Source: Sporobolomyces roseus | Taxonomy: Eukaryota; Basidiomycota; Microbotryomycetes; Sporidiobolales; Sporidiobolaceae | Direction: 5' to 3' | DNA length: 64,000 bases | Assembly (NCBI GenBank): GCA_016617785.1 | Contig: JADILM010000007.1 | Coordinates: forward strand, 1,178,001-1,242,000 | Shown: one piece after another, positions 31,513 through 43,619 of the stretch | Layout of the letters: the number at the start of each line of letters is the position of its first letter | Position numbering within the stretch: the stretch's first letter is position 1 | Position numbers and translations under genes: made by a program | Notes under the pieces: model-generated | Told to the model about the DNA's origin: nothing | What the model saw: only the letters and a program-made list of their open reading frames with translations | Database searches by the model: none

Positions 31513-33535
31513 TCTGAAACGAGTTGAATGACGATTGGATCGAGGAGGAAGAGCGAGGGAACACTGGTAAGTAACAAGGGGAGTACACGAGAGCTTGCTG
31601 AAGGTCTGGAGTTGGAGAAGAAGTATCTGGAGCTTTTGAGAGTGAAAGAGGCGAGAAGGGGAAACGACCTCTCGAAACGGAGAACTCTCATCAATTCATG
31701 AGTAAATCGCTTAAAGATCCAGTAAATCAAACTAGCTTGTATTATCTCTAGATCAGCGATCAAAGTTAGCTCAGAGAGTGTTGCGGGAGATGAAGCGATT
31801 CACCTCCTCACACCCGACTGAAGCGGAGGATCGGTCGAGCCTCAGCTCGTGTTCGCCGTAGAGGCTGAAACGGAGACCCTAGGAGGCCCGCAACACCTCA
31901 AATCGAGGCCCTTCGAACCGAGCCTCCGAGGGGTGTCCCCTTCGGAGCCTCGAGGAGCCCTTTAGAATCGCATCCTGCTCGATCGTCGCTTCGACTTGCT
32001 GTCGAAAGCTTGCAGCGACCTCGCGCTCACAGGACGTCTAGCTCGGACATCTCTCAATCCGCTCACCAAGCCAGCACCAGTCACAAGCAAGCATGTTCTG
32101 GACCGGCGTGCTCGCGACAGCTTGCGATAAATCGCTCTCCTGTTCGATTCTGCCGTCTCACGCCGTGGTAGCAGACCGCAGACTCTCAACCTAGTCGCTG
32201 TCAATTGTAGAGGGGAAAGAGGAAAGCGTAGAACCTTGTTTGGCATGTAAAACAGGGATACAAGTATATGCGAAGGGTAAAATTCGAAGAATCTTCGAAC
32301 TTCTCTAAAGTGTCAAGGTTGACTTCTCCAATCTTCTCTTCTGCTTGATGATGACCAGTCGAGCTGATTCATGAGATCTGAACGCGACAGACGATAGTAC
32401 GCTCGGAAGCTGCGGTGAGAGATCGAAGAGGTCAACTCTACTTCTGCGAGACAGAGAGAAAGGAGCGAACTCACCTTGCAAGTGCTCGTGTATACTGTTC
32501 TCTGCAGCCGAGGTAGAGTGTTTGCCGGATCCTAGCGAGTCTATGAGTCCCATCTTGCTGAGTTACGAGGAGGTTAGATGCGAGACCGAAGAAGAAGGGA
32601 GTAGAGGCGAGAAGTGATCAATCGATCGTGGCACGATGTAGTGGAGTTATCTTGGTGCTTGAAGTCCGAGGAGCATGATGAACGAGTAGAGCGGTCGAAT
32701 AGGGTAAAGCGAGTAGTTGAGGCCAGGGATTGGAGTAACTCCAAAACGAGATCGTCATGCATAACCTCCTCGTCTCCCCTCACTCCTAACTGCTACCACA
32801 TACGGTCCCTTCCTTTGAGTGTACTCAGACCATAGGAATCCTCGTCGAGCGTGAGTCTCCTGCCCTTCACCCTCTTCGCTTATGCCGCGAATTCTTCTCC
32901 ATCAAAACGCCCCACTGACGATCTCGCTACATCTCTAGGTCATGTACCTACCATCTGATATTGTGAATATACTCAACAAGCATATTCCTCGAATCCTCCG
33001 GGTTCACGAAGCGTTGATGGACTTGTTGAACGAACTCGACAAAGTTGAGGAGAGCGAACTTGCTCTCTTCGTTGGAGTCTGGTGTGTAGGCTCGACATGC
33101 TATCTTGCCGTGATTTCGAACGTCGAGATGTCGCTCGAGCGCTAGGGAAAGGGGAGTAGGGAAGAAGAGAGAGGAAGGAAGGAAAGAGGTTTGAGAGAAC
33201 TAGAGGACCTTGCCCCAAGAGGAGCCCGAGCTAGAGCGAAAGTACTATTATGCCAAGCAGCTCATAGGAGTCGATCTGGGAAAGGTGAAAATGAGCGTTG
33301 CTCTCGAGAAAGAGAAAGATTCCTCTCTTCTCCTTCCTCTCTCTTTCACAACTCATGCTTTCAACTCGAGCTAAACTACTTATCTCGACTACGCAAGCAA
33401 AACACTTAACCAGCGCTCACACTGGCCCCCGATCTATTCTCTCTACTCTCTCCCTCCTCTCGCCTTCATCGCTCTCGCACCCTTCGACCACGTCTCTTTC
33501 CTCTCCCCCTCAGCTTCTCCTATCCTTGAGCAGTC
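31513..33535. other. 2 kb region between VMA21 and the Fanzor-like gene, weak small-gene candidates only
   Basis: No convincing gene. Weak candidates: a minus-strand two-exon frame starting at the ATG at 32553 (MGLIDSLGSGKHSTSA, intron with a GTGAGT donor, second exon near 32370 ending ...DWRSQP), about 50 aa; and a plus-strand frame at 32942-33145 (MYLPSDIVNILNKHIPRI). Neither has a recognised family. The 400 bp before 33536 are strongly CT rich, consistent with the leader of the large gene. Confidence 0.35.
31919..31952. other. GC-rich near-perfect hairpin
   Basis: Arms 31919-31933 and 31937-31952 pair over about 15 bp with one mismatch and one bulged A, closed by a TGT loop: CGAGCCTCCGAGGGG against CCCCTTCGGAGCCTCG. 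Neighbouring sequence repeats CGAGG and CCCTT elements in both orientations. It is upstream of VMA21. I could not fold it into a tRNA or 5S rRNA. Confidence 0.6.
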
Positions 33536-36500
33536 ATGACTCTCACAGGACTCCATCAAGCCACCGATGCAGCAGCGAAACGAAACATGGAGCAGATTGT
33601 CAAGTGGAGCAAGGAGGAGAAGTTGGGAATTATCACCAAGGTTTTACGTCAAGCGAATTGGGATACTTCAACGGGAGGTGGTCAACCGGTACCTCCTGGA
33701 TTTAGAGGTGACAGTTTCGAAGATGTTGATCAACCTTGGAGCTTCAAGTCGGATAATGCAGACGAGGTAATTGAGTGGATACTAGAGAGCTTACCGCCTG
33801 GCGAGGAACGTGAGTCTCTCGGAACCCTCCTTCCTCACGCCTTTTCCTTCTCTGTGCTGATTCATCCTCGTCCTCGAGAGTAGTTCATCGTTTGGTACTC
33901 GACGTTTCGAACGTTCTCTTCCCCTTCTTCGTCAACTTGGATCGACTTCTCTACGCTCACCACGCTGCCAACCGTCAAGACTGGTCCAGCTTACTCCAAG
34001 AACGACGCTTCCTCGAACTTCGCAAGCATAACGCCGTCCTCGACTATCTCATCGAGAAGATCCACACGATCAAAACGTGTTACTCCATTTACGATCATCC
34101 TTCGAAAAGAAGACCAACGAAGTACATAGCTGAGGAACCGAGACATGATCCAGGAGCGAAAGCGAGAGGAGCGAAGCTTGTGGTAGAGGCGAAGCGGGAG
34201 TATCGAGAGGGAGGAGGAAAAGGTCAGAATCAACCGATACCACGTGAGCTTTCGACTATTGATTCTCTCTTGCTCGTTCAACTTCATTCGTTGTACTGAC
34301 GAAGCGGGTGATCCAGAGATCGACATGCAAAAGGAGGAATCGCGATTCCCTGCTTTCTCTCCTACTACTCCAGAAGAGCTTGTACGTTTCTCGACCTCTT
34401 ATCGCGGAGTGATCGACGTCGTAAACTGATCCTGTACCTGCTGTAGCGCCTACCGAACAACCCTACTCCTCTGCAAGTGCTTATTCATCGTGAAGCGACG
34501 AAACTCCACCAAAGGTCAATTCAGATAGTTTCCCGAAGTGAAGCCGATTCAGTATGTCGCGATGCAAGTCTAGGCCGATACCCTCACCCGAATTATCCCG
34601 TCCACTCGTATCAAGCACCTTCGGAACCGTCTCCTCTTCCTTCGCACTCCTCCTCGAATCAGCCATCCTCTTCCGATCATCCTTCTTCTTCTCGTCCTCC
34701 TTCCTCCTCCTCGTCTATCAACCCTGCGACTCCTACTCACGCGAAGCTCCCTACTGCCGTCGATATCGAGTCCCTCCTTCATACCCCCTTCCCGAATCTC
34801 TCGCTCATCGTCGGAACCGACTCGGACCACCAAGGTCTCAATGACCAATGGTCAGCATCCCACATCCTCGGGCTCTCCTCCTCGCACCCATCTCGAGCGA
34901 CCGATCTCAGGAAACGATTCAACCATTCTTCGGACTGGGGTTACATCGACAGAATCGCACAAACTATCGCGATGGTCGTTGCCGGATGTGACGAAACCGA
35001 TGGTCTCTACGGATACACGGTCGCTGGTATCGCTCGATCCGGTCGTGAAGTCGACAAAAGGACGCCGAAACAATCTCAAGAATTCGTCCTCCTCGACTTC
35101 TGCAACTCCTACGTCAGATTCTTCGAAATGTACGAGCAGGTTCGAATCCCAGGCGGCACGACGACGATCATGGTCGACCAGCAGCAAGTCAAAGTCGATA
35201 TCAGAGGTTTCGAGCAACACCTTTACGAGTGGTTCAAGAAATTCCTTCCCCCTAACAAGGTTTCCGAATTCAAATTCTCGCTTCAGCTATTCCTCTCGAC
35301 TTTCCTCGGACTCTTCACCGATCAATACGAAGTAGTCGATAAGCAGCTTTCGAGGAAAGCGGCGGAAGAACGGGTGGAGAAGGAAACGAATCGACAACTG
35401 GAGGATATCTACCGACGCAAAGGAATGCACAACCACCCGTTCAGCTCGTTGATCCGACACTCGACTACACCGAAAGAGAATAGACGTTCACCTCCTCCGA
35501 ACTTGCAACTCAACTTTCACCTCGTCAAGAATGGACCCGATTCTCGTACTTTCTGGCAAGAGGAGAAGAAGACCGCCGAAGAACTCATCACCACTCAGAG
35601 TCAAACGATGGCCCCTCTCCCTCCCGTCAAAGCTCCTCCGAAGCAGAAGAAGAAACAACCGACGAAATCGAAACCAGACGACGACGGACCTTCGAGCGCT
35701 CTACGAGAAGGACACGGTATCAAGAAGTTCGACTATGCACTCTCAGCAGTCCCGTTACCGCTCAAAGACGCTACTATTCGAAATCTACTCTTCCCCGGTG
35801 AGCCTCCTACTTTCTGATCGTTTTACTCACGACACTGATTCGGTCCGCTCTCAAAGGTATTCCGGAAGGTCACCACTTTCACCACAATTTGGTCAACGTG
35901 CTCAATTCTTTGCTGAATGTCTGGCTCAACGAATCACCTGCTATCAACGAAACTATAAACGGAATCCTCTCGCTTTACTGGCAATTCTCACCTGACCGAC
36001 TCGTCGAGCGTGGATCGAATCCTCGAAACTTCGGACACTTCGTCGCCGCTGTCGTGCTCGAGTGCAAGATCTACTACCGCAAGCATCCGCTTCCACCGAC
36101 GCATCAACCCGACCCTCTCCCTCAATCGATTCCCCCTCACAATCCCTCCCGGTTCCCACAGTGGCTCGAAGATCGAGTTGTAGAATTCCTCGTGTCGGTT
36201 CCTCTTCATCTCCACGCCAGCTTCCGACAGCTAGTCGCCGAATACCGCTTTGTCGAAGGAGAATTCAAGTACTCGAGCACAACCGTATGTTCAGTTCTCA
36301 TCCTTCACCGTCTCCTCTATACTGACCAGTACTGAGTACTCGACTACAGTTCGACTTGGTTGGAGCGATGGTTCTCAAGGAACGTCGTCGTCTTCGTTTC
36401 CCTCCTCCCATCCTCACCAACAACGATTTCATCTCTCTCAACTACACCACGGCTGGAACGGGATTGATGAACGCTTCCGACGCTCGTGGTCGCTCACTCG

Positions 36501-39500
36501 CAAGTTTCCTCTCCAGTAACCTCACCTCCTCTCTCCTCGACTTCTCAAGTCGAATCCCTCTGAATCGTTACAACATCTCGACTGTGGACGTTTCGAACGC
36601 TTCTACCACCCTCTCGAATCTCTCCGACGAAGTCCTTCAAGATCTTGTACCACTCACTCAGGCGAAATCCGTCAAAAGGTTACTTCGACTCCGATTCTTC
36701 TCGGCTCCCCTTCCAAAACCATCTCCATTCGAACATCAAGGACCTGCCGAACCTTCCACCGATGCTACGGATTCAGATTCGACAGGCGATGAGGATGTAG
36801 AGATGTTCAACTTGGAAGATTTGTTGAAAGAGGACGGGGAGACTCGGATGGATTGGGAAGAAGAAGAAAGTTCGGATTATGGTGATGATGAGGACGATGA
36901 AGAAGACGATGAAGATATCGCGATGGATGCGTCGGAGTTGGAGAAGGGATTGGAGGATCGAATCGCAAAACTCATCAGTGATGCTGCCCTCAAGAAGAAC
37001 ACTTATCACGATTCGACTTCAATCTCACAAGCCGCCAAAGCTCTCGCCAAACTCCTCGTTACTTCGGTCGACTTCCTGATCAAGCATGTCGGTATGTCGT
37101 TTGTCGAGGCAACTCGTTGGATCAAGTTGAACGGAGTCAAGTGTAGACGAATTGGAGATATGGTCATGGGAGGAGGAGGGAAAGAAGTCAAGTTTAGGAA
37201 GAAGGACGATTTCTTCGACATCGGGAGGAAAGAACCTGAGGGAGAAGAGTATGAAGAAGCAGAGGAAGAAGAGGATGAGGATGCGAAGAAATCGAGTGCG
37301 AAAAAGGTGTTGAGGTCGATCGTTTTAGGAGTACTCCCGTTCTTCGGCAAGACCTTCTTCGTGAGTCATCCTCCCTGCCTCGTATACTCCTCGTAGCTTG
37401 TACTTACTGTGGGTGCCTCGCTTGATAGAACTTCCACCCAAGAGGATGCGACACGAACATGCCGATCCTTCGCTCGCTCACGAATACGCCTCCTAGGGTA
37501 TCAACGGCTCTCGACCCACCCGATTATCTTCCGATCATGATCTTGAAGCTCACCGATCGTCTCGCCGTCGATTCTCTCATCGCGAACAATTCTCTCCGAA
37601 ACGTTCGATTCCCTCCTTTCGAAATTCCTCCGACCACTTCGCTTCCGCAACGAGAGCCAGCACGACACACGTACGAGGAGGTTCGCAAGTGGAAGGAGGA
37701 GGATTCATTTGTGAAGCTGCAAGCCGAGCACCCCGACAAGATCCTTCTCGCCGCCAAAGACCACTTTCCCCACCTCGAATTCCAGGAGGAGCCTTCATCT
37801 GGTCCTTTCCGAGTTGTCCGACTCACTCAGAACGGACTCGCAACCGCACAAGCTCAGTCACGAACGATCGAAGCGTTCTTCGACAATCTCGGTCTCACAG
37901 CTAAAGATTTGACTCAAGTTGCCCACGAAGCGCTCAACTGGTGGTTCAAGCCTCATATCGGTCACAGACTCTACCACGGTAACTTTTACTTCAATCGCTT
38001 CGAAGTCATTCCGTTGGTGTACGATCCCCGTCGGTTCACGAAAAAAGGATGGAACAAGTATCAAGGTCCGTTCTCTCGCTTCTCTTTTCCAGTGTTCGCG
38101 AGACTGATACGGACCCTTCTGCTCAGGTCGAATCGAAGGAAAGCCATGGACAACTGTTCTCGAGATCCTCGCTTCGGAACACCCCAAGATGCTCGCCGTC
38201 TACCAGAAACTCGAAACCCTCAACTCGGGAAAGGAGCGACGTCCTGCTGTCGGATTCAGCGAAAAAACTCACCAAGCGACGGGAGGACATCCAGTTCCTC
38301 GACCTTCCCGAGCACCGAAAGGTTCAGTCGAAGAGGCAAAGATCGACGACCTCTTCTCGATTCTCAGGACGCAACGAGAAGGGTCGAAAACTGTTCTCCG
38401 TCTCGAACGTTCTCCTCGCGACAAAGTATCTCCTCCTGTTCTAGACGATCGACGAGGGCTCTATCTCCCCTTCAAGGATATCGTCACGCCAACTGGACAA
38501 AGGGTACTCGAAATTTGGGGAAGCTGGATCTTGGCGAACGTCAACTCGGATCCTTCGTATCCTGAACTCGCTCACGTCTTGGACCCGCTCTTCGAACCTC
38601 GTCCTTCCCCTCCTCCTTCTCGACCTCACACTCCCGCTCATCGACCTTCTCGCACAGCTACCGAATCGTCTTCCACCTCTCTCCCCCCTTCTTCGTTCCT
38701 TTTCGACTCTTCCGGCCAAGGGAATCGCAACACCAGTGATACTTCTTCAGCTGCAGCCCTTCCTCCACCGTTCCAAGCAGATCATCGAGTAACGAGGTCG
38801 TCTGCGATAGGTTCGACCTCTCAATCTCAACCTCCTCGTTCCGCGCCACCTCCGGCTTCTCTCGATCAATCTTCTCTTCCTCCCTCGACCGACGGTATCG
38901 CTCCCAAAAAGCGAGGATACCTGATCGCGAACGATCTTGGACGTCGAATTTCAGTCGATTCAATCCTCATCTCGCCTCAAGGGCCTATCAAGTTCTTTCG
39001 GATCTCGTCTGGTCAGAAGAAGAAGCAAGAGCGTCGAGCGAAAGCGCGTCGAACTGCTTTGCTACCGCTGGACGCTCGTGGGAGACTCGTCAAAGGACTA
39101 CAAGGTGAGTTTCGACATCTTCTCTTCACGATGACGATTGGAGCTGACTCTCGTGCGCCCATGCTCTAGATAATTTTGGATCTACCTCAAACGATATCAT
39201 CTCTCTCCTCGCTCGTCTCAGCGTCGATCCCTCTCGGGTCGATTCTCTCGTAGACTTCGAATCCCTTCGACTTCACCTTCCTCCGACCCTTCAACCCTCC
39301 CTTCTCCACGTCGAAGACTATCTCGGATCGAAACGTAATCTTGTGGAGCAGGAACGTCGTCGAGCGAGATTGGACCAGCAAACCGCTCGACAATGGAAGG
39401 ATGCTCTGCCTCCACCTGCCGATGGGAGCAAACTCGAACTCACTTTGATTACCTCTTACGACGGAATCACTGGTGGTGCTGGGTACGGAGCTCGCAACGA

Positions 39501-40109
39501 GAAGGAACAGGAAGATTCGATGATACGAGTTTTGAGAGGGTTCTCGTGGGTGAATCTGTTGTTGCTTCGATCGAGTGAAGCGTATTCGTCGCAAGTCTGT
39601 TCGAAACCTTGTTGTGGTGGAGCGTACGTTCAACCAAATCTTCTCTTCTTCTCTCAACAACTCAAAAGCGAGATACTGACTTTGCTCACTCCCTTTCCTC
39701 GAACGACAGTCTCGTCCACCCAAGTCGACTCGGCGACTCGCTCAACTCCTTCAACCTCCGCTTGGTGGTCTGCATTCGATGCTTCGAGCTCGGACATCGA
39801 GACGACAACGCGGCAGCGAACATCGCAAGGATGGCTCTTGCTCGAGGTCGAGGCGTCCGAGGGAACATTCTCTCTCCCGACAACGCCAAGCTCTCCGGAA
39901 ACAAGTTCCGCGGTGAGAAACATCAGATCACAAGATTGGAACATCAACTTCGGAAACATCTTAGTCCACTCTCAGAGGAAGCAAGGAGGCAAAGGTTGTT
40001 GGAGCTTAAGGAGGGTGATTCTTTGATTACTCTCCTCGAGATGACTGCCGTTGCACTTATGGAACTTGACGAGGACTTCTTGGTCGGAGATGACGAGGAG
40101 ACTGAGTAG
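33536..40109 (+). CDS. Very large protein with C-terminal TnpB/Fanzor-like RuvC and zinc ribbon
   Basis: Ten exons (33536-33809, 33884-34243, 34305-34381, 34447-35797, 35857-36284, 36350-37360, 37429-38065, 38127-39104, 39170-39623, 39710-40109) add to 5970 nt in one phase, about 1989 aa. The C-terminal 350 residues match the TnpB/Fanzor (OrfB) layout: NDLGRR (candidate RuvC-I Asp, about residue 1649), SSEAYSSQVCSKPCC (candidate RuvC-II Glu about 1842 plus first zinc-ribbon cysteines), CIRC, and GHRDDNAAANIARM (RuvC-III Asp about 1888). Known Fanzors are RNA-guided DNA nucleases. The N-terminal 1300 residues have Ser/Pro-rich, Lys-rich and acidic (DDEEDDED, about 36890) stretches and no family I recognise. 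Alternate open frame at 38262-38444 leaves one piece uncertain. It may be two genes, but phases join throughout. Confidence 0.65.
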
Positions 40110-40297
40110 GAGGTTAATGGAGGATTCACAACATTTGAGTATTTTACATTTCGACTGTTCACTTTACTGAAACTTGACCCGTATCTATTGAGCGCAAGTA
40201 ACCAGAAACTACTAAGGCGAGTCGAACGAGAGGAAGTAACGAGAGATTCTATGCTAGAGATGGGAAGAGAGTCAAGCGATTTTGACAGTAATGCTAT

Positions 40298-41384
40298 TCA
40301 TCGAGGAGAGTAGAATCCTCGCGGAGAAATGAGAGGGAACGTCCGGGGACGAGACCCAGCAGGGATAGGTCCAGCTTGAGACGGCATCGCGTAGTACGGG
40401 ACTGGAGGAATGGCGAGGGTTGCGGAGGGAGGAGTAAAAGATTGTTCGAGCGAAGGAGTAGGTTGAATCGAGGACGATGAAGGTTCGTGGACGTTTCGAC
40501 GATGCTTTTCGAGTCCAGCAGATCGAGGGAATTGCTTCGGAGGGGTGCAGTCGTTGCAGACGTGAAGGAACAGCTCCAGATGAGTGAAAGCGAGGTGGTC
40601 GATCAGGTGTTGAACAGTTTCGAATTTACTCTGACACTTCTCCCATCCGCATCTCCACTTCGATTCGTACTCGAAGCGACGAACGAGATGAACTGCTTCG
40701 AGGTGTATTTAAGAGTTGCTCGAGAGTTTCGCACTCTTGAGTACATCCGTCGTCGTCGTTCCATCGACACTGATGGTAGGTAGTTCCTCCTCCAGTCGCC
40801 GATCTCGTCGATGTTAATGCTTGAGGAGCGAAAGGAAGGGCGAACGGTGAGAGATGGATCGGAGGGAAAGCGGCATTTCGAACCGGAGGAATCGAATAAC
40901 TTGGGTTCGACAACTGAGGAGGAAGAGGGGGATGAGGGGAGGCAGGAGATGGCTGGTAAGAGGGAGAGAAGGCGTAATCTGGCGGAGGATGGAGAGGAAA
41001 GGTTGAAGTTGAGTAAAGGTGATTATTGACTCGGAGTTGCGAAAAGGATGATGAAGAGGAAGTGTGGGCACCGCTGAGAGGGGATGAAGGAGCGGGATAG
41101 AGGGAAGAGGAGTGATCTAGAGTAGTTGGGGTGAAGGAAGGGTGGTGAGAGCTTAGGCGTTGCTGGAGAGCGACGAGTTGCGAAAAACTGTGTTCGTCGA
41201 AGTGTTGGAGAAGCTGTTCCACCGAGTCGCACTCAACGTCGCATCCCGGCCATCGACAGGAGTGTATGATCTCAGGCGAATTGAGGAGATGGACGAAGTG
41301 GACGTGCTCGAATAGACTTTGTGGATTTTGATAAAGCTCTAGACAAGGCGAGTTGCTGCTGGCTGACCAGGGACAGAGAGCCAT
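40298..41384 (-). CDS. C2H2 zinc-finger protein with an apparent one-base frame break
   Basis: Probable nuclear regulator. From the ATG at 41384: CPWSAS, a finger-like segment with HVHFVHL, then CRWPGCDVECDSVEQLLQHF with downstream His, a long Pro/Ser/Tyr-rich linker, and CRWNDDDGCTQECETLEQLL. Here the frame ends shortly after, but the histidines needed to complete that finger (HLEAVHLVRRFEY) lie in another frame, followed there by two more fingers (WRCGWEKCQSKFETVQHL with HLAFTH; HVCNDC with LEKHRRNVHEP) and a stop at 40298. The switch lies at about 40700-40712, one extra base, with no splice site to explain it. Tail-to-tail with the Fanzor-like gene. Could be a sequencing error, a true disruption or a programmed shift. 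Confidence 0.65.
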
Positions 41385-41726
41385 GAGGATTCGAGCGGCT
41401 CGAGAGTATCGATTTGACCTATATATCGATGCCGCTGTAGTAGAGAGGATTTCAGCACTGGAGAACTCGAAGGAGAAGAGGAATTGGACGAACCCGCGAA
41501 ATCTGCTCAAGTTGACCAACTCAGGATTCCTTTCCCGAGTATTTCTTGCGAGAGCTTCTGAAAGCGTCGAGGGAGAGCTCGAGAAGGAGAGAGAGGGAGT
41601 AGGAACGACGAGAATCGACTATCGGCGGAGGGGTGAAATTGAGAAGTCGAGAAACCGATTGGCGAGATGTAGGTCTGCTACTGAGCGTGTGATGTACGGA
41701 AGAGGGAGAGAGAGAGAGAGAAAGAG

Positions 41727-42250
41727 ATGTCCACGAGAGTGACTCTAAGCGAGCGAGCGATTCGCTCGTTGGACATCAGCCTTTGTGGGGGATGTCCCGC
41801 GAGCGATTCGAGCAAAACCGAAATTCTCTCTCTTTCTCCTTTCTCTTTCCTTCACTTCACTTTCCACTTCACTCTCTCACCTCACTCTCTTACACTTCAA
41901 TACCAACTCAACTTGGTGATTCAACTCAAGAACAACATCAACCGGCTAACAACATTCGAGAGGAAAGGGAGATGGTGAGTTCTGACCCCTCCTCCTTTCT
42001 CCCTCTTACTCGGGACTCGGGAGCTAACTCTCTCCCTCTCTCTCTTTCTTTCTAGTCTCTATTCTCTCCCGGAGGTGTCTCTTGAATCCTTCCCAAGTCA
42101 ATCTCAATCGCTTGTGGTGAGTAACTAGCCGTTTTCTCCTCTCTTCTTTCGCAACTGATTCGAGTGTTTCTTCTCTCTCTAGCTTTCAAAACTTCTCGCA
42201 TGATTCGTACACCAGTCTCTCTCTACTCAATCTAAACCTATAGTACGTCT
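41727..42250 (+). other. Likely spliced 5' leader (short upstream frames) of SDH4
   Basis: Two typical introns can be read in CT-rich DNA: donor GTGAGT near 41973 to acceptor TTTCTAG at 42056, and donor GTGAGT near 42118 to acceptor CTCTAG at 42182, each with GCTAAC or CTGAT branch-like sites. Splicing the first puts ATG directly before TCTCTATTCTC, giving a ten-codon frame that ends at TGA; another frame from an ATG at 41727 stays open across both introns to GCATGA. This looks like a spliced leader with upstream frames or a small non-coding transcript, not a conserved protein. Confidence 0.4.
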
Positions 42251-42588
42251 CAGCTTGCTACAGTTTCTCAGAACGAGAGCTGACGAAACGATGAGAGTTT
42301 GTCGAAACAGATCTCGCAAGTTGTGCAACTTTCTGCTCTAGTGAGTTCTCCTCTTGCTTTAATCTTCTCTCGATCATGAATTGACGAATTAAGACTCGGA
42401 GGACAGGTCCTGAGTGAAGGATCACGAGCTCGAGGTTCAAGGGGTTGGAAATTGGAAAGAGAGTCTCTTTTTTGTCGATACTTTTTTGTTTGCTTTTTTG
42501 TTTGCTGGCCTCGTTGATACCCTTAAAAGTAGCTCTCCACTAGATCCTCCGAGACTCACGGAGGCACCGACTCCTCCTCCCAAGGAGG

Positions 42589-43619
42589 ATGTCTCAACTT
42601 GCAATGTTGCTTTCGATTCGCTCACTTCGCTCTCTCCTCTCCACCCCTTTCCGATCTCTCAACATGTCGCTCCCTATCTTACGTCAAAGAGCATTCCAAC
42701 AACTCGGTCGAAGGACTTTCACCTCTGGTACGCTTTGCAAACTCACGATTTCGATCTCACCGCGGTTCATTCCGATTCAACCTCACTACCTCACTCCGCA
42801 AAGTAAGCGATGAGCTGACCGAGTTGTACTGGTGCATGTGAACAGGTCGACCAGTATTCGCTGCCAACTCTGCTGCTGCTAAACGTTAGTTTTCCTCTAC
42901 TCTCATCTCACTCGACTTTCCATTTCCACTCTCTCTCTCTACCTCTCGTATTTCATATGCTGACCCTTTCTCACTACGAACAGCTTGTACGTTCGCCCTC
43001 CCTCTCGCATCCACCTCGATCTCGACTTTCCCTCTCTTCTTTCCCCTCTTTTCCCATCCGATCTCGCAGAACTAACTCCCTCGTCCCCCTTGAACAGATG
43101 TCGAAGGTACAGTGAATGACCCTACTCCTTTCCCCGCCCCTAACAAAGCGCATGGATCCTACCACTGGACTTTTGAACGACTTCTCTCTGCCGCCCTCGT
43201 TCCTTTAATCGCTTCCACCGCTGTCACCTCCGTTAATCCCGTACTGGACGGTATCATCTGTACTGCTATCGTCGCTCATTCACACATGGTATGTCTCCTA
43301 CTCCCTCTCTCTCTAGAAGAAGATGAGAACTGATGATGCGTTTTGACGGATTTGAAGGGTTTCGATTGTATTCGAACTGATTACTTGCACGAGAGGAAAT
43401 TCCCGGTTGCTGGAAAGGCTGCCAATTGGTTATTGAAGTTGGCGACTGGTGGTGTGTTGGTCGGTGTTTACCAATTCGAGACGAACGATATCGGTGAGCA
43501 CTTCTCTAATTACTCCATCTCACGTTTTCCAATCGGAGACTGATGGCGTGAAGTTTTCGGTGTTCGCAGGTATCACTGAGTTGATCAAAAAGGCTTGGCA
43601 CGCTGAGAAGAAGGAGTAA
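42589..43619 (+). CDS. SDH4: Succinate dehydrogenase membrane anchor subunit (CybS)
   Basis: Membrane anchor of respiratory complex II in the mitochondrial inner membrane, binding ubiquinone and heme with Sdh3. Exons 42589-42727, 42846-42884, 42984-42986 (3 nt), 43098-43288, 43358-43493, 43570-43619: 558 nt, 185 aa. The N-terminus is an Arg/Ser/Leu-rich mitochondrial presequence; an internal ATG at 42664 would give 160 aa with a still good presequence. Core: GTVNDPTPFPAPNKAHGSYHW, then FERLLSAALVPL, the heme/quinone helix AHSHMGFDCIRTDYLHERKFP, and a last membrane segment. The 3-nt exon CTT converts K-H to K-P-Y; skipping it keeps the frame. Confidence 0.93.

Follow-up and report, generated by a model that had tools for sequence, protein, structure and literature searches.

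Fanzors are eukaryotic RNA-guided nucleases of 400-700 amino acids (aa) whose natural role is described as unknown in PMC10432273, and most Fz1 proteins are placed at 600-700 aa in PMC11423790. Fanzor and TnpB proteins share a motif formulated by Bao and Jurka as D-X(125,275)-[TS][TS]-XX-C4-X(5,50)-RD (PMC3627910). Two fingerprints are set out for Fanzors in PMC10711439, a DPG in RuvC-I and a glutamate lying six residues upstream of the zinc ribbon, the alternative glutamate or Ealt. Here, we describe a giant Fanzor-like gene of the basidiomycete Sporobolomyces roseus, located on the forward strand at 33536-40109 of the window, by which we mean the whole stretch of 64,000 nucleotides that was analysed (C7:1178001-1242000, in a genome of 22.4 Mb and 15 contigs). 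The gene has ten exons, encodes 1,985 aa and lies within an apparently mobile element of 10.8 kb (31809-42609). With a probability of about one in two, we read the locus as one of two copies of a mobile element whose giant RuvC-TNB nuclease is likely still cutting, aided by RNA, in a manner that would serve the persistence of the element.

The giant frame runs from an ATG at 33536 to a TAG at 40109 and is open across nine GT-AG introns of 59-86 bp each. Exons 1 to 3 (33536-33809, 33884-34243 and 34317-34381) are taken from the spliced gene model. Exon 4 (34447-35797) is flanked on both sides by intron positions common to both paralogues described below, and exons 5 and 6 (35857-36284 and 36350-37360) draw on the gene model together with the intron comparison. 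Exon 7 (37429-38065) bears most of a conserved family block, at residues ~1208-1405, which is N-terminal to the nuclease domain. A RuvC-I-like strand with D1645 (codon 38933, in a DLG) is encoded at the end of exon 8 (38127-39104), the alternative RuvC-II glutamate E1838 (codon 39577) and the first ribbon cysteine (39598) in exon 9 (39170-39623), and the second half of the zinc ribbon (CIRC) with the RuvC-III aspartate D1884 (codon 39801) in exon 10 (39710-40109). A chaining script recovers the identical ten exons and 1,985 aa; this is a consistency check only, because the script was given the stop and was trained on the codons of this very gene. Two further supports for the model are the recurrence of the introns in other genes and a second intact copy. 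An earlier note on this DNA had proposed a single ten-exon frame of about 1989 residues. The exons do splice in frame, the C2 copy keeps the whole frame and the giant size stands, while the exact count is 1,985 aa by the splice choices made here, so that our residue numbers are four lower than those of the note (D1649, E1842 and D1888). Since the motifs listed there (NDLGRR, CIRC and GHRDDNAAANI) are all present and in frame, the observation of a giant Fanzor-like gene is confirmed, and the locus proved to be richer than first stated.

The kinship of the C-terminus with TnpB and Fanzor, also suggested in the earlier note, is borne out by a PF07282 match above the cut-off, the complete Bao-Jurka motif and the alternative glutamate. 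In Pfam, where matches up to E <= 10 were considered, PF07282 (Cas12f1-like_TNB, or OrfB_Zn_ribbon) matches with 29.0 bits and E 1.2e-6 against a curated cut-off of 26.3, and a 275-residue C-terminal piece reaches 30.3 bits and E 4.7e-7. The other two of the three protein pieces have no Pfam match at that threshold, and the reversed C-terminal 608 aa matched zero Pfam families. NCBIfam TnpB models match the same stretch weakly (E 0.0013 and 0.0085, far under their cut-offs). Outside the TNB region no Pfam match above the cut-off was found in the giant protein or its paralogues, including the part N-terminal to RuvC where WED and REC domains would be expected. A six-frame search of the genome with PF07282 and PF01385 gave zero matches, which for PF07282 is likely due to the intron at 39624-39709 splitting the domain. 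Within this C-terminal end, 195 residues separate D1645 from an SS dipeptide, the ribbon cysteines are C1845, C1849/1850, C1874 and C1877, and the RD at 1883-1884 follows five residues from the last of them. Six residues separate E1838 from C1845, exactly as in the alternative-glutamate fingerprint, and the candidate catalytic triad is thus D1645-E1838-D1884.

The position of this glutamate was compared with 119 TnpB frames, duplicates included, from 136 viral and bacterial loci. By a loose rule, only 1 of the 119 has a glutamate near the alternative place, and none combines it with DPG, in a control set that is skewed to the canonical glutamate because the loci were picked by their likeness to canonical TnpB. 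The search of eight cyanobacterial genomes with PF07282 gave 324 matches, 30 of which were taken as loci. One Oscillatoriales genome holds a 540-residue TnpB frame with a DLG and a glutamate near the alternative place.

SpuFz1 of Spizellomyces punctatus, an Fz1 protein, resembles the giant protein in the C-terminal D ... [TS][TS]xxC ... RD motif and in the alternative RuvC-II glutamate beside the ribbon. It also comes from a eukaryotic host and is reported to be carried by a mobile element in which likewise no transposase was found (PMC10432273). The order of its catalytic residues, given as D383-E541-D606 in PMC11423790, is the same, with spacings of 158 and 65 as against 193 and 46 here. The gene structures differ, since ten exons stand against the single open reading frame described for SPu-1 (PMC3627910), and so do the carriers: the element described here is 10.8 kb long, lacks terminal inverted repeats and contains a second gene. 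With TnpB proteins (IS200/IS605 and IS607, e.g., ISDra2) the giant protein shares PF07282, a D-hydrophobic-G in RuvC-I and the RD in RuvC-III. However, TnpB is described as a protein of ~400 aa with its canonical glutamate ~50 residues upstream of the ribbon (PMC10711439), whereas PF01385 and PF12323 have no Pfam match in the giant protein. The combination of canonical glutamate and PF01385 that marks the IS607/IS605 type is therefore absent, the conserved glutamate occupying the alternative place.

The gene is not alone in its genome. When its last 575 residues were compared with the genome, a second copy was found on C2, in pieces 87-95% identical (the window itself scores only 86-99% in that search because exon joins are misread), along with two further weak matches (E 5.7e-4 and 0.12). 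DNA comparison revealed a feature absent from the earlier note, a duplicated, sharp-ended block of 10.8 kb around the gene. The copy at 31809-42609 and that on the reverse strand of C2 (~1605669-1616479) align continuously at 96.0% identity over 10,866 columns and end abruptly on both sides. Beyond these ends the flanks are unrelated, save two bases at each edge: the candidate 2-bp target-site duplications at 31807-31808 (left) and 42610-42611 (right) are both CT in the window and both AA around the C2 copy. These CT/CT and AA/AA edges suggest 2-bp target duplications, in two cases only. Queries of 600 bases from the ends, with very common words skipped, found the two copies and, in addition, 59 bases at a fragment at C7:962265. 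The absence of obvious terminal inverted repeats, remarked on earlier, was upheld, as the best end-to-end alignment scores 30, under the maximum of 39 from 200 shuffles.

The two sharp-ended copies and the candidate duplications speak for a gene encoded by a mobile element. The same block could have been copied by chromosomal duplication, with its sharp ends being chance break points, an explanation that we regard as quite improbable: it would fit two copies only, the lack of terminal inverted repeats and the failure to recognise a transposase, but it has to treat as coincidence a 2-bp flank identity at both ends of each copy (1 in 256 by chance) between flanks that are otherwise unrelated. 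As to the kind of element, the nearest edge match is with PlavakaB of fungi, for which 2-3-bp target duplications and CA...TG ends are described (PMC12730594). The element shares the CA...TG ends and the 2-bp duplication candidates, which makes a lead only, and it differs in having no terminal inverted repeats and no recognised transposase. Plavaka (PF18759) had no match in the genome in a search run without a positive control.

Both copies of the giant frame are open and differ by two 3-nt indels only, and they are under purifying selection. Codons with a single change carry 46 synonymous differences in 1,457 sites and 48 non-synonymous differences in 4,498 sites (Fisher p 3e-7), a count that leaves out eight codons with multiple changes. 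The NG86 (Nei and Gojobori) ratio of non-synonymous to synonymous divergence, dN/dS, was 0.37 (0.0133/0.0362) in a calculation that placed intron 1 slightly differently. No catalytic or ribbon residue differs between the copies. At the DNA level the divergence is patchy, amounting to 0.8% in the left non-coding part (1.7 kb), 2.4% in introns and 15.7% in the right 1.2 kb (41385-42609), which suggests recombination with other copies or with another source. Just 3' of the giant gene's stop, at 40113-40297, there are zero substitutions over 182 aligned bases (and three gap columns), a weak signal because other non-coding parts differ by just 0.8%.

The two weak genome matches turned out to be genes of like size, P3 on C3 and P2 on C2. 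Their models use the splice rules and codon scores of the window gene and are least secure in the first exon. In an alignment built blind to introns, the window gene and P3 share 7 of 9 introns (same phase, within six columns), the window gene and P2 6 of 9, and P3 and P2 6 of 8, while randomly placed sites gave means of 0.12-0.14 shared introns and a maximum of 4 in 5,000 trials. The shared introns start at residue 234. Since they are shared with such diverged paralogues, the long protein is no annotation artefact, and most of its N-terminal half and the nuclease end were already part of one protein when the family diverged; the giant architecture is accordingly both real and old. The two element copies are 98% identical in the four-member alignment, whereas the remaining pairs of members are at 19-36% and the window gene and P3 at ~20%. 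D-x-G, Ealt, three ribbon cysteines, HRD and NIA are invariant in it. RuvC-I reads DPG in P2 and DGG in P3. Both paralogues retain the alternative glutamate and HRD and have lost the last ribbon cysteine; on PF07282, P3 scores a sub-cut-off 12.3 bits and P2 has no match, nor do NCBIfam TnpB models match P2. By their sequences, P2 and P3 look like resident descendants with a decaying ribbon. The best BLAST match of the element protein to each paralogue (E 1e-16 and 9e-9) falls in the conserved block at ~37560-38214 (residues 1208-1405). Further genome searches based on P3, whose match counts are lower bounds, did not find a fifth member. In a set of 5.8 billion proteins no homologue of element residues 1290-1987 or of P3 840-1500 was found at E <= 1, a weak negative since only the 7,986 and 7,983 candidates richest in shared words were scored. 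No relative was found among 62 pattern matches in viral contigs, and no giant Fanzor is reported in the titles or abstract openings found by searches of the open-licence literature on Fanzor and TnpB in fungi.

These paralogues bear on how the gene is to be understood. The earlier note had offered a domesticated gene or a host protein with a captured domain. While its claim of TnpB/Fanzor kinship stands, this part is not supported for the gene in the window, which belongs to a discrete, mobile-looking element present twice in the genome; for P2 and P3, each a single copy, the label may be apt. Of the fused Fanzor that was also proposed, a recent fusion is contradicted by the N-terminal part and introns common to all four members, and an old fusion is indistinguishable from an ancestrally giant protein. 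The family could also be an old host family that has repurposed a Fanzor-type domain, e.g., to bind DNA or RNA in chromatin or during repair, with the element carrying a captured copy. We consider this rather unlikely, yet a real contender, because the element has other captured DNA (it contains pieces of the locus at C7:962265) and the two diverged paralogues, which have the same architecture, are single-copy. The ribbon cysteine missing from both of them, and their poor or absent PF07282 scores, are what a decayed module would be expected to give. However, the element copies retain four ribbon cysteines and the full motif with catalytic and ribbon residues unchanged, even the paralogues retain D-x-G, Ealt and HRD, and capture together with all introns and the element's own second gene is possible but unneeded.

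According to the reading of the locus as a nuclease-bearing mobile element, the last ~340 residues would form a RuvC-TNB nuclease module of TnpB/Fanzor lineage with D1645, E1838 and D1884 as candidate catalytic residues. The long N-terminal part may supply the lobe that binds RNA and DNA and, perhaps, contacts partners. The protein would cut DNA where RNA made from the element helps to choose the site; from kinship we infer such RNA guidance. Copies placed by transposition and later lost could then be restored by repair from the remaining copy, a role in persistence of the kind suggested for TnpB and discussed for Fanzor.

Several observations weigh against this reading. RuvC-I is DLG in both element copies, and not the DPG fingerprint of Fanzors. 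The giant protein of 1,985 aa is ~3x as long as Fz1 proteins in the range given above, and the paralogues have 2,055 aa (P2) and 2,142 aa (P3). Because the superfamily motif and PF07282 are present while DPG and Fanzor size are not, we use the name Fanzor-like rather than Fanzor in the strict sense, and regard the gene as a giant TnpB/Fanzor variant. RNA folding pointed to no clear guide RNA, with z-scores of -0.65 to -1.30 at the element ends, -2.29 in the final 150 nt of the reading frame and +2.01 immediately 3' of it, and comparison of the copies' left flanks revealed no common motif that might serve as a TAM (target-adjacent motif). The element has no recognised transposase, and in the window copy its second frame, of zinc-finger type, is broken by a frameshift at ~40710-40714.

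Further difficulties concern RuvC-I. Profile-profile comparison of the family with 16 TnpBs gave E 0.0044 and 0.0066 with probabilities of only 8% and 6%; with a profile of 110 TnpBs (de-duplicated frames of 300-620 residues) it gave E 1.1e-4 and 57%. The alignments cover ~60 columns at the ribbon (TNB) and never RuvC-I. Of the C-terminal residues, profile comparison backs the TNB end only. No TnpB, Fanzor or Cas12 chain was found in the PDB by sequence at E <= 10, all matches being at chance level (E 0.15 or worse). Since profile alignment is confined to TNB, RuvC-I rests on the motif, on invariance within the family and on a low-confidence fold model. This single-sequence model of a single-exon RuvC-I piece (pLDDT, the predicted local distance difference test, 62; pTM, the predicted template modelling score, 0.25) surrounds D1645 with four strands (10-13, 19-22, 24-26, 34-36) and a helix (43-55), and the model of an exon-9 piece was worse (pLDDT 50). 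A zinc ribbon derived from some other source, with a DLG upstream by chance and no RuvC-TNB module, would account for the profile alignment that stops short of RuvC-I, for the lack of a relevant PDB chain and for paralogues that are sub-cut-off or unmatched on PF07282. Nevertheless, we hold it to be very improbable, as PF07282 is above threshold and the reversed sequence gives nothing, NCBIfam TnpB models weakly match the same stretch, every one of the four members retains D, G, E, C and RD, and the low-confidence model places beta-beta-beta-alpha in order around D1645.

The candidate RuvC-TNB module of the element is of interest with regard to Fanzors, the RNA-guided nucleases of eukaryotes for which no natural role is given in PMC10432273. 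This family is about three times the usual size, with a conserved extension that exceeds 1,000 residues, a DLG in RuvC-I and a second gene in the element. Its open, mobile-looking copies and older single-copy paralogues form a natural series in which both the benefit of the nuclease to its carrier and the route to a host gene may be followed. A more far-reaching proposal, which we think distinctly unlikely, is that of a separate class of mobile element: its protein of ~2,000 residues would join an RNA-guided Fanzor-type nuclease to a mobilisation module of its own at the N-terminus and work with a zinc-finger partner, and it would have left at least two resident host descendants with decaying ribbons.

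The second gene of the element, at 40301-41384 on the reverse strand, lies between the stop of the giant gene and the right end, in convergent orientation, and probably encodes a C2H2 zinc-finger protein. Its Pfam matches are all below their cut-offs (FOXP-CC 28.2 vs 28.9, DUF7565 23.8 vs 27.1 and zf-C2H2 20.5 vs 25.2). In the C2 copy the frame is open for 358 residues from the chosen Met. A search of the genome matched only the two element copies (E <= 0.1; 7 candidates scored).

Near the left end, three collinear fragments (32312-32370, 32373-32431 and 32442-32722) resemble C7:962265 and beyond at 88, 86 and 79% identity, which probably means that they were captured from another locus in this genome and have since decayed. 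On the other side, a possible start codon of a neighbouring gene lies at 42664, ~55 bases past the right end, and the element may therefore sit in the upstream region of that gene.

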